A stretch of 64,000 bases of DNA from Chloroflexota bacterium (GTDB taxonomy: Bacteria; Chloroflexota; UBA6077; SHYK01). The notes below the pieces were generated by a model. It saw nothing but the letters and a program-made list of their open reading frames with translations, searched no databases and was not told where the DNA came from. Shown one piece after another: positions 36,322 to 39,521 of this stretch. Numbering within the stretch: position 1 is the stretch's first letter; each line of letters opens with the position of its first letter. The stretch is from NCBI GenBank assembly GCA_009692845.1, contig SHYK01000001.1, positions 306,400-370,399 of the forward strand. Reading direction: 5' to 3'. The position numbers were made by a program, and so were the translations under genes.

Positions 36322-36963
36322 TCAATTGGCCGAGATGCGCGGAGCCGGATCAGGAGCTGCGCCGATCCAGGTGCGTAGCGCAGCGACGACCGCGGAGCGG
36401 ACCGCCAATACCACCAATTTGGGATTCGGGCGCTGGAGCGCTAACTGGGTGTCGATCGCGATGCCGATCATGAGCGCGGTCGCACTATCGTCGTCCACGC
36501 CCTGGTTGAGGAGCTCGGGGCGAGGGCCCCAGCAGCCCAGCTTGGGGTTTGTCCCCGGTTCAACTCTCAAACCATAGGGCATGGCGGCCGCCAGAGTGAT
36601 CTGATCGCAAAGGAGGCTCCACAACCGGTAGGCCTCCTCTCTCGACACTTTCGAGTAGATGTCCCGCAGCGCCAGCAGCGTACCGTCGTCCCAGACCACC
36701 CAGGTGCGAAGGACATCGACATTCGGCCCATAGTCTTCGAAGTGCTCGACCGGCGAAACCTGAAGGATGGCTGATTTGGTGCCGAGCGCGACCCGCTCGG
36801 TAAGGGCGGCGGTCGCTCTGTCGTGGTCGGATGGTCCGAGGCTGTCCGTACAGGCTCCCGAGCAGAAGTCGCGGGGCGTGCCCGCGCTCCCCCAGTATAG
36901 GGAAGACGGCCAAGCATTTCGCGGTGAGCCCTTCGACAACCTCAGGCGGCGGGTTTTAAGCAA
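36322..36963 (-). CDS. hypothetical protein, 5' end inside a REP-like repeat
   Basis: Up to 213 aa, not recognised; probably a soluble alpha/beta protein. The convincing part begins near DRATAALTERVALGTK and includes VEHFEDYGPNVDVLRTWVVW. No ATG or GTG occurs in the first 90 codons; the only starts are TTG 36963 and TTG 36939, the latter lying inside the repeat at 36926-36949. The first 12 or so residues are therefore translated repeat sequence. Either the repeat supplied a new start or the gene is truncated. Confidence 0.5.
   Translation of the reverse strand: MLKTRRLRLSKGSPRNAWPSSLYWGSAGTPRDFCSGACTDSLGPSDHDRATAALTERVALGTKSAILQVSPVEHFEDYGPNVDVLRTWVVWDDGTLLALRDIYSKVSREEAYRLWSLLCDQITLAAAMPYGLRVEPGTNPKLGCWGPRPELLNQGVDDDSATALMIGIAIDTQLALQRPNPKLVVLAVRSAVVAALRTWIGAAPDPAPRISAN
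36926..36949. repeat. REP-like element, copy 2
   Basis: GAGCCCTTCGACAACCTCAG followed by GCGG. Member of the family seen at 30377, 36985 and 45812. It overlaps the proposed 5' end of the hypothetical gene on the minus strand. Confidence 0.65.
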
Positions 36964-36984
36964 AGTGCCGGCAGTTGGCCGGGC

Positions 36985-37012
36985 GGCCCTTCGAGAACCT
37001 CAGGGTGAACGG
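36985..37012. repeat. REP-like element, copy 3
   Basis: GGCCCTTCGAGAACCTCAGG followed by GTGAACGG, in direct orientation 59 bases after copy 2. It lies just before the end of the radical SAM gene. Confidence 0.65.
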
Positions 37013-37033
37013 GCGGGGAGGCAGGGCCCCGTT

Positions 37034-37927
37034 TTAGATTGGGAGGGCGAGCTGGCGGCGACGGGTGGGCTGGGGTGCCTCGATCAACGCGTGACTCATT
37101 CCCGCTTTTTCCCGAAGCCCGCTGACCTGACCTTCGATGCGCAGCTGGTAGCCGGTGTTTAGCGTTGGCCGAGCGGCGTAGAGCTGCTCATAGGAGGGGG
37201 GCAGCTCAGGAAAGGCCTCGGCCACCGCCTGCATGAAATACTCCTTGACTCCGGGCGGAAGCCGCAGCGCGCCGGTCCAAACGTCCGAGGCACCGTGCTC
37301 GGCGGCGGCCCGAACCAGATCGGTGAGCGACTCGACGTCATCGGTCAGGCCAGGCAGGACCGGGGCGAGAAAAACACTGACCGAGATGCCCGCGGCCGCG
37401 AGCTTTCCGATGGTTTGCAGACGGCTAGTCGGCGACGGGGCACCCGGTTCGAGCTTCTGCAGAAGGTCGCGGTCGAGACTGATCAGGCTCATGTTCACGG
37501 TGAAGCCGGCAAAGCGGGTGAGATCCGTGAGAACGTCAATGTCCCGCCTGATCAGAGTCCCCTTGGTGGTTACGGATCCAGGATTCTCCGCGTCGGCTAG
37601 CACCTCGAGGCATTGCCGGGTGATCCGGTACTGGGCTTCGAGGGGCTGGTAGGGGTCGGTCGCAGTACCGATCGTGATGGGCTCGCCGTGCCAGCCCGGG
37701 CGGCGCAGCTCCTCTCGGAGGACCTCGGCCAGGTTGGTCTTCACGAACAGCTGAGTCTCGAAGGCGGAGGCGGGGAGATCGAGGTAAGCGTGGTAGGCAC
37801 GAGCGTAGCAATAGGTGCAGGCGTGCCGGCAGCCTTTGTACGGGTTGAGCGACCATTTGAACGGCATGCCCTGGACGGCATTGAGGGCGGTTCGGGCCTG
37901 GATTTCGTGAACAACCGGTGGAACCAT
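37034..37927 (-). CDS. Rv2578c-type radical SAM protein (SPL-related)
   Basis: 297 aa from ATG 37927. NPYKGCRHACTYCYAR carries the C-x3-C-x2-C site for a radical-SAM [4Fe-4S] cluster, and ITIGTATDPYQPLEAQY with TRQCLEVL is typical of the subgroup distantly related to spore photoproduct lyase. Reaction unknown. A GGAGG lies 11 bases upstream; GTG 37933 would have shorter spacing, and the open frame begins at 37993. Two GAAC-N4-GTTC sites at 37950-37981 sit directly upstream, so LexA control and a DNA-damage role are inferred. Confidence 0.88.
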   Translation of the reverse strand: MVPPVVHEIQARTALNAVQGMPFKWSLNPYKGCRHACTYCYARAYHAYLDLPASAFETQLFVKTNLAEVLREELRRPGWHGEPITIGTATDPYQPLEAQYRITRQCLEVLADAENPGSVTTKGTLIRRDIDVLTDLTRFAGFTVNMSLISLDRDLLQKLEPGAPSPTSRLQTIGKLAAAGISVSVFLAPVLPGLTDDVESLTDLVRAAAEHGASDVWTGALRLPPGVKEYFMQAVAEAFPELPPSYEQLYAARPTLNTGYQLRIEGQVSGLREKAGMSHALIEAPQPTRRRQLALPI

Positions 37928-37949
37928 GACCACGGAAGCCTCCGTAGCA

Positions 37950-37961
37950 GAACGTGTGTTC
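37950..37961. promoter_or_regulatory. LexA (SOS) box, proximal
   Basis: GAACGTGTGTTC matches the GAAC-N4-GTTC operator known from Gram-positive-type LexA (B. subtilis, mycobacteria). It is 23 bases upstream of the radical SAM ATG, where a repressor would block transcription. Confidence 0.75.
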
Positions 37962-37969
37962 TTATCATA

Positions 37970-37981
37970 GAACGAGTGTTC
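37970..37981. promoter_or_regulatory. LexA (SOS) box, distal
   Basis: GAACGAGTGTTC, the same GAAC-N4-GTTC pattern, with its centre exactly 20 bases from the proximal box, about two helical turns, so two repressor dimers could bind one DNA face. Confidence 0.75.
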
Positions 37982-38150
37982 CCCTGCCGTCAAGGCTCAA
38001 GCCACTGTGCGCACTGCACAATGCGGTAGTGGAAGTTTTCATGCAGGCTGACTGTGCAGACCGATCTGGGTTCGGGGCTAGAATCAGGCCAACGTGGGCC
38101 GAGACTGGGTGCCTGGGTGCCTGGGTGCGGACCTGGGGAGGGGGAGTTCA

Positions 38151-39521
38151 TTGAGGGGATTGAAGCGCATCGGCCTGGCCGCGGCGGCGGTAGTAGGTTT
38201 ACTCACCATCTATGCCGCCAGCACTGCGGCGGCTCAAGGAGCGACTGCGTCGACCGCGGCGATGCCTGCCGCCACGATCGATACCGGCGATACCGCGTGG
38301 GTTCTCACTTCCTCAGCATTGGTTCTGCTGATGACACCCGGTCTGGCTTTCTTCTATGGCGGGCTCGTGCGCAGAAAAAACGCATTGGCGACGATCATGC
38401 AGAGCTTCATCATCATCGGCCTCGTCAGCGTCCAGTGGGCGCTTTGGGGCTATTCACTGGCATTTGGCCCGGATGCCTTCGGAGGTCTGATCGGAGGGCT
38501 TGATTGGATCGGCCTACGAGGCGTGGGCGTTGAGCCCAATGTCGACTATGCACCCACGATCCCGCATCAAGCCTTCATGATCTTCCAGATGATGTTTGCG
38601 GTCATCACCCCGGCGCTCATCACCGGGGCGTTTGCGGAGAGAATCCGTTTCAAGGCGTTCATCTTTTTTACGCTGCTCTGGGCGACCTTCGTGTATGACC
38701 CCATCGCGCACTGGGTCTGGAGCGGCTCCGGTGGAACACTAGGCATCTGGCGCGCGATGGGAGCCCTGGATTTCGCCGGCGGCACCGTGGTGCATGCGAG
38801 CTCCGGCGTGTCGGCTCTGGTGGCCGCGATTTATCTAGGGAAACGCATCGGTTTCGGCCAAGAGCGGCTCGAGCCTCACAATGCAACCATGGTCGTGCTG
38901 GGGGCCAGCCTCCTGTGGTTCGGGTGGTTCGGCTTCAACGCGGGAAGCGCGGTAGCCTCCGGAGCGCTAGCCACCAGCGCGTTCGTCGCAACCCACCTGG
39001 CTACCGCGATGGCCGCGGTGACCTGGATGACCATGAGTTGGATGCACAAGGGCGCGCCTAGCGTGCTGGGAGCAGCGGCGGGCGCAGTCGCGGGGTTGGT
39101 GGCCATTACCCCCGGCTCCGGTTACGTGACTCCGCCGGGTGCATTGCTGATTGGCTTCGGCGCCGGCGTGGTCTGCTACTGGGCGGTGGTGTGGACCAAG
39201 GACCGGTTTGGGGTCGACGATGCGCTCGACGTGTTCGGCATCCACGGCATCGGGGGAACGTTCGGTGCCCTGGCGACCGGACTCTTCGCTACTACGGCGA
39301 TCAATGCGGCAGGAGGCAATGGCCTGTTCTACGGAAATCCCCAGCAGCTACTGACTCAGTTCATCGCGGTGGCGGCCACCTGGGTTTGGGCGGCGGTCGT
39401 CACGCTGATCATCCTCAAAGTCGTCGATGTCACCGTCGGTTTGCGCGTTGAGCCGCACGAAGAGCTGGCGGGCCTGGATGCCTCGATGCACAACGAGCCC
39501 GCCTACGCAGTGGAAATCTGA
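38151..39521 (+). CDS. amt: ammonium transporter
   Basis: 456 aa Amt/MEP channel. A cleavable signal peptide (KRIGLAAAAVVGLLTIYA, cleavage after TAAAQ-like sequence) precedes eleven helices. Family motifs: FYGGLVRRKN, the Phe-gate region, and the pore histidines in GGTVVHASSG and GIHGIGGTFG. TTG 38151 is selected because GGGGAGGGGGAG lies about five bases upstream and it begins a proper signal; the frame opens at 38094. No glnK follows, which is unusual; instead two tiny membrane proteins do. Confidence 0.92.
   Translation: MRGLKRIGLAAAAVVGLLTIYAASTAAAQGATASTAAMPAATIDTGDTAWVLTSSALVLLMTPGLAFFYGGLVRRKNALATIMQSFIIIGLVSVQWALWGYSLAFGPDAFGGLIGGLDWIGLRGVGVEPNVDYAPTIPHQAFMIFQMMFAVITPALITGAFAERIRFKAFIFFTLLWATFVYDPIAHWVWSGSGGTLGIWRAMGALDFAGGTVVHASSGVSALVAAIYLGKRIGFGQERLEPHNATMVVLGASLLWFGWFGFNAGSAVASGALATSAFVATHLATAMAAVTWMTMSWMHKGAPSVLGAAAGAVAGLVAITPGSGYVTPPGALLIGFGAGVVCYWAVVWTKDRFGVDDALDVFGIHGIGGTFGALATGLFATTAINAAGGNGLFYGNPQQLLTQFIAVAATWVWAAVVTLIILKVVDVTVGLRVEPHEELAGLDASMHNEPAYAVEI

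Follow-up and report, generated by a model that had tools for sequence, protein, structure and literature searches.

Tandem LexA-type boxes at the promoter of a spore photoproduct lyase-like radical SAM gene in a Chloroflexota bacterium

Main finding

Analysis of a 64,000-nucleotide stretch of Chloroflexota DNA (the window) revealed two LexA-type boxes within the promoter of a radical SAM gene, and SOS control of this gene is near certain on sequence grounds. The product is rather likely to be an SOS-induced enzyme resembling spore photoproduct lyase (SPL), probably tethered to the sliding clamp, which would act on damaged DNA by a reaction other than that of SPL.

Tandem boxes in the radical SAM promoter

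Two exact copies of GAAC-N4-GTTC were found at 37950-37961 (GAACGTGTGTTC) and 37970-37981 (GAACGAGTGTTC), with their centres 20 bp apart, and the window contained no site of this type beyond these two. The original prediction had described this pair at 37950-37981, spaced by 20 bases and with no other such pair noticed in the window, and both the description and the coordinates were correct. Read on the coding strand of the radical SAM gene (37034..37927, minus strand), box 1 (37970..37981) is GAACACTCGTTC and box 2 (37950..37961) is GAACACACGTTC. Scanning of the region 36900-38200 gave a single sigma-70-type promoter match, TTGACG-N18-TATGAT on the minus strand, with the -35 element at 37988..37993 and the -10 element at 37964..37969. 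The spacer of this promoter is filled by box 1, and box 2 starts two bases past the -10 element, directly on its 3′ side. The boxes are located 22 bp upstream of the gene, which starts with ATG at 37927 or, alternatively, with GTG at 37933, the latter having GGAGG at normal spacing. Overlap of operators and promoter is the arrangement expected of a member of a GAAC-N4-GTTC LexA regulon.

Both boxes were kept in relatives and the layout recurred there; in locus L039, for example, TTGACA-aatc-GAACGTGCGTTC-TATAAT is followed by a second box. Three family members had a box-to-box spacing of 20 bp and two had a spacing of 24 bp; in one of the latter, the first box had one mismatch.

At least two GAAC-N4-GTTC sites per 64 kb were present in 25 of 100 shuffles (mean 0.92), a frequency that is not rare, and the chance of a second site within approximately 30 bp of the first, calculated from the shuffle rate, was about 0.1%. 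The real evidence for the boxes is their conservation.

LexA and SOS genes of the genome

The assembly containing the window is a Chloroflexota MAG of 1.88 Mb that is 88.9% complete. A search for lexA, which had been proposed along with the original prediction, identified one canonical gene (TIGR00498, 177.6 bits; cut-off, 110.95). The encoded LexA has an Ala85-Gly86 cleavage site and a Ser119/Lys162 dyad, and the lexA promoter, TTGACG-N17-TATGAT, is followed by the same type of box, GAACAAACGTTC, approximately 25 bp before the lexA start. At recA of this genome, only a box with two mismatches was found, GAACGAATGAGC, beside TATACT.

Counting over the whole genome gave 21 exact GAAC-N4-GTTC sites versus 16 for the reversed control, so that the motif was hardly enriched. 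Because these counts are weak, a genome-wide regulon based on exact boxes alone was rejected, and the argument for a regulon is built on where the boxes lie and how well they are conserved. In this genome, exact boxes precede lexA, nrdJ, ruvB, and dnaE.

Several of these loci were observed individually. The exact box GAACGTGCGTTC is situated 47 bp before nrdJ, encoding an adenosylcobalamin-dependent ribonucleotide reductase (G000:C9:110652, L021), which is likely an SOS member in this genome. An exact box lies directly before ruvB (G000:C9:11776, L019), overlapping the Shine-Dalgarno sequence, and another upstream of dnaE (G000:C2:13783, L025). In addition, a AGAACGGTAGTTCT box was seen upstream of a gene that has weak similarity to the model of the Rv0910 toxin family (G000:C2:309675, L026) and is followed by a dprA-like gene.

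Conservation of the boxes in the class and across phyla

Within the class, exact boxes were present at 26 of 29 lexA genes; the remaining three are extra copies, and the other lexA of those genomes has an exact box. Homologues of the radical SAM gene in the class had exact boxes in 11/17 cases and boxes with one mismatch in 3/17. The recA genes of the class showed a one-mismatch box in 21 of 24 (GAAC-N4-GTGC in 20 and GAAC-N4-GTAC in 1). Unlike those of lexA and the radical SAM gene, the recA operators (L237-L260) were consistently one base off, and GAAC-N4-GTGC is perhaps a conserved weaker site at these genes.

When 80 named homologues were compared, 40 had an exact box within 200 bp upstream, versus 0.27 (maximum 2) in dinucleotide shuffles. 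GAAC-N4-GTTC ranked top among 2560 four-base palindromes upstream of the same 80 homologues (mean 0.36), and the best palindrome other than its shifted versions reached 10. Sorted by record label, exact boxes occurred in Chloroflexota (23/37), Bacillota (9/12), Actinomycetota (3/3), Eremiobacterota (2/2), and Armatimonadota (1/2), and in none of 20 Acidobacteriota. Homologues in other phyla, which the original prediction had singled out for examination, were thus found to carry the box as well.

These data also bear on the possibility that the boxes belong to amtB, the divergently oriented ammonium transporter gene on the plus strand, that they serve another regulator, or that they are fortuitous. 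Such a reading could draw on the position of the boxes between divergent genes and on the frequency of two sites per 64 kb. However, it is the radical SAM promoter that the boxes occupy; they accompany the radical SAM gene into genomes in which the other neighbours differ, and lexA carries the same box. The tracking across genomes ruled out amtB as the gene served, and conservation (40/80 versus 0.27 in shuffles) ruled out a chance origin; overall, this reading is highly improbable.

By all available sequence criteria, the two boxes are very probably LexA operators. The claim of LexA control was upheld by the box at lexA and by its retention in relatives and other phyla, and none of the three observations that would have spoken against it (a genome without lexA, a LexA with a different motif, or boxes lost from relatives) was made. 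From these features we infer that LexA binds here and that the gene is induced by damage.

Other box types at the radical SAM gene

In Acidobacteriota, a direct repeat, CGAA-N7-CGAA, was found at 16 of 20 radical SAM loci, and also at one locus labelled Proteobacteria. On the other strand, it was present at acidobacterial lexA promoters, exactly in 5/19 and with one mismatch in 14/19, typically as TTCGCCTTTCCTTTG, and an exact copy was found in 6 of 18 acidobacterial recA promoters. Written for the other strand as TTCGC-N6-TTYGC, the repeat was observed to be common to the radical SAM (L071-L132), lexA (L179-L197), and many of the recA (L203-L221) promoters of this phylum. It is a probable acidobacterial LexA box, and a literature search found no paper on an acidobacterial CGAA-N7-CGAA LexA box. 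Neither exact box type was present in the scanned 200 bp of 19 of the 80 homologues.

Plasmid-borne homologues of alpha-Proteobacteria had GTTC-N7-GTTC in 5 of 6 cases, and one gamma-proteobacterial homologue (Aeromonas) had CTG-N10-CAG, CTGTATATATAAACAG. Four Chloroflexota loci (L082, L085, L087, and L092) were observed to have GTTCG-N6-GTTCG-like (TTCG-N7-TTCG) repeats adjoining the -10 element upstream of the radical SAM gene; these resemble the alpha-proteobacterial LexA box, and the repeat was not seen at the lexA genes of those four Chloroflexota. Judging from these promoters, the radical SAM gene retains lineage-specific boxes of apparent LexA type across several changes of motif.

The radical SAM protein and its families

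The gene is present in a single genomic copy and encodes a protein of 297 aa. Its score against PF04055 (55.2 bits versus 29.5) and its CX3CX2C [4Fe-4S]/SAM motif place it in the radical SAM superfamily; the motif (Cys33, Cys37, and Cys40; 37808..37831, minus strand) was invariant in 39/39 homologues. The best-scoring curated family was NF038135 (Rv2578c family), with 295.2 bits over nearly the whole protein, yet under the cut-off of 430. The second was NF033668 (PA0069 family), with 241.4 bits, under the cut-off of 360; this family has LexA-type boxes and a QLxLF tail in common with the protein studied here. Curated membership in either family was rejected because of these scores, and the label "Rv2578c-type" given in the original prediction can be kept as the name of the nearest family but not as a curated assignment. 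Radical SAM mobile pair protein B (TIGR04470) is a recognisable homologue (117 bits), and the member of it that was read had neither a close upstream exact LexA-type box nor the tail. The original prediction had placed M. tuberculosis Rv2578c in the LexA regulon; a literature search found no paper joining Rv2578c and LexA.

Among gene neighbours compared across phyla, none recurred so widely as to indicate the substrate. At three Chloroflexota loci, the radical SAM gene was seen to adjoin a MutY-like gene, assigned by eye.

Relation to spore photoproduct lyase

The predicted model of the protein had a pLDDT of 91.8 and a pTM of 0.88. Its best Foldseek matches were SPL structures, with 4fhg at E 2.2e-10 and TM 0.68 (range 0.65-0.69), and other radical SAM enzymes acting on proteins, peptides, and RNA showed weaker fold similarity. 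In profile comparison with the PDB, SPL was recovered at E of approximately 0.001 and nothing scored better. The alignment to the SPL profile was restricted to residues 30-193, in which Tyr39 and Tyr41 correspond to the YCY of SPL. SPL is therefore the nearest solved fold and shares the CX3CX2C motif, but it is longer, possesses an H-donor Cys, and lacks the C-terminal QLxL tail described below.

Cys141 of Bacillus subtilis SPL is the H donor. In a profile alignment with four true SPLs, the SPL sequence AACTSDP aligned over IGTATDP, which placed Thr88 (37664..37666, minus strand) at the position of this Cys; the column was Thr in 36/39 homologues and Cys in none.

The literature label splB would imply a genuine SPL or photolyase-like enzyme for UV thymine lesions, and the SPL fold, the CX3CX2C motif, and the two tyrosines matching YCY agree with that label. 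Nevertheless, Thr88 replaces the H-donor Cys across the family, the SPL family models PF20903 and TIGR04070 gave no match to the protein at 0.001, PF20903 was absent from this genome, and four Bacillota genomes have a true SPL alongside the radical SAM gene. Identity with true SPL was rejected on the missing Cys and the lack of a family-model match, and this label is accordingly quite improbable for the enzyme. An SPL-type reaction is unlikely, given Thr88 at the H-donor position and the coexistence of both genes in the four Bacillota genomes. The relation to SPL put forward in the original prediction thus stands as distant homology and a common fold, not as identity with that lyase.

A conserved C-terminal QLxL tail

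A feature not noticed in the original prediction was found at the C-terminus. The protein ends in RRRQLALPI, following a variable linker of low predicted confidence, and QLALPI (37037..37054, minus strand) resembles a sliding-clamp-binding motif, being of the QLxL(x)(F/L/I) type on a flexible terminus (pLDDT <50 at residues 291-296). Sliding-clamp-binding motifs include QL[SD]LF, QLSLPL of Hda, and QLVLGL of Pol IV. Of 101 distinct complete homologues, 78 had QLxL within their final 30 residues, versus 4 (maximum 11) when tails were shuffled. The motif mostly stood 5-8 residues from the C-terminal end, and elsewhere in the protein its rate was 0.02 per 30 residues. By phylum, the tail was found in 37/37 named Chloroflexota and 11/12 Bacillota homologues, and Acidobacteriota had forms such as QVGFAW and QEGFRW. 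Proteobacterial homologues ended exactly in QLSLF, QLSLL, QLTMF, or QLRLF, which we take to be the textbook sliding-clamp-binding motif. DnaE of this genome contains QASLF. The tail was absent from SPL and from one mobile-pair-B protein checked. The word "clamp" did not occur in the papers on SOS regulation or SplB covered by a limited literature search, among them PMC3323433, PMC8565304, PMC7739468, and PMC9380542.

A search of the 88.9% complete assembly for the gene for the clamp itself, dnaN, by its C-terminal domain (PF02768) found none, which may reflect assembly incompleteness. That result could also be counted in favour of another function for the tail, namely a degradation signal or some other peptide contact. 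Proteases can recognise hydrophobic C-termini as signals, and degradation is a frequent fate of SOS products. Against such a function, the leading Gln is retained, the proteobacterial tails have the four endings given above, DnaE of the same genome has its own QASLF, and SPL and mobile pair B are without the tail; we consider it doubtful. A sliding-clamp tether is the plausible and slightly favoured interpretation of QLALPI as judged from its sequence.

The tail is also relevant to the nature of the substrate. An SOS-controlled enzyme might modify RNA, a protein, or a cofactor that the damaged cell requires, and it may be noted that proteins, peptides, and RNA are the substrates of other radical SAM enzymes with a less similar fold, that the catalytic Cys of SPL is absent, and that the SPL profile covers residues 30-193 only. 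On the other hand, the closest relative in both fold and sequence is a DNA-repair enzyme, and the clamp-like motif is kept across phyla, so that a non-DNA substrate seems rather unlikely. DNA is instead the most likely substrate, a view strengthened by the clamp-motif-like tail, and the reaction would be other than that of SPL; we likewise infer that the clamp may be bound.

Proposed mode of action

In the proposed mechanism, one LexA dimer would sit between the -35 and -10 elements and a second near the transcription start, which would block RNA polymerase. Upon DNA damage, RecA filaments would promote self-cleavage of LexA and the radical SAM gene would be turned on. The product would combine the SPL fold with [4Fe-4S]/SAM radical chemistry and would probably be tethered to the DNA sliding clamp by its QLALPI C-terminus, and its 5′-deoxyadenosyl radical would most likely take hydrogen from a DNA lesion or crosslink. 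Since Thr stands here in place of the lyase's H-donor Cys, the reaction is expected to differ from the one that the lyase catalyzes.

Comparison with known SOS-regulated radical SAM genes

A 2012 study inferred that splB is SOS-controlled in alpha- and beta-Proteobacteria (PMC3323433), and such control was also inferred in Bacteroidetes (PMC8565304). A radical SAM protein is also listed for the core Gram-positive regulon and for Balneolaeota (PMC7739468). For vnz_31145, a radical SAM gene of S. venezuelae, ChIP-seq gave a LexA peak, and mitomycin C raised expression 20-fold (PMC9380542); this gene is likely a member of the Rv2578c family (PMC12924846) and likely a homologue of the gene described here. 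Gene context has tied SplB-like enzymes to ImuB-C, with Ku and other repair genes (PMC3765255).

The present case shares with the SOS-regulated splB/COG1533 genes a SplB-like radical SAM gene under lineage-specific LexA boxes, and differs in its tandem palindromic boxes and in its lineage, a class of Chloroflexota. For other phyla it was already known that LexA controls SplB-like radical SAM genes, and the Chloroflexota class adds a further case. The original prediction of a still undescribed repair reaction holds insofar as the reaction has no assignment, but SOS control of such genes had already been published.

More widely, SplB-like radical SAM genes are repeatedly found in SOS regulons, and the LexA boxes differ greatly from one of these regulons to the next. 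Control of LexA type is kept while the type of box changes (palindrome, direct repeats, and CTG-N10-CAG), which indicates lasting selection for induction by damage. The clamp-motif-like tail offers a concrete handle on the reaction of the enzyme and is the part most worth following. We know of no described example of a clamp-recruited radical SAM repair pathway. For the Rv2578c/PA0069-like enzymes as a group, the chances appear evenly balanced that they are SOS-induced DNA repair enzymes tethered to the clamp through QLxL(F/PI) and catalyzing a reaction distinct from that of SPL. If true, a clamp-recruited radical SAM repair pathway would have been kept across several phyla, and oxygen-sensitive radical chemistry would belong to replication-coupled DNA repair in many bacteria.
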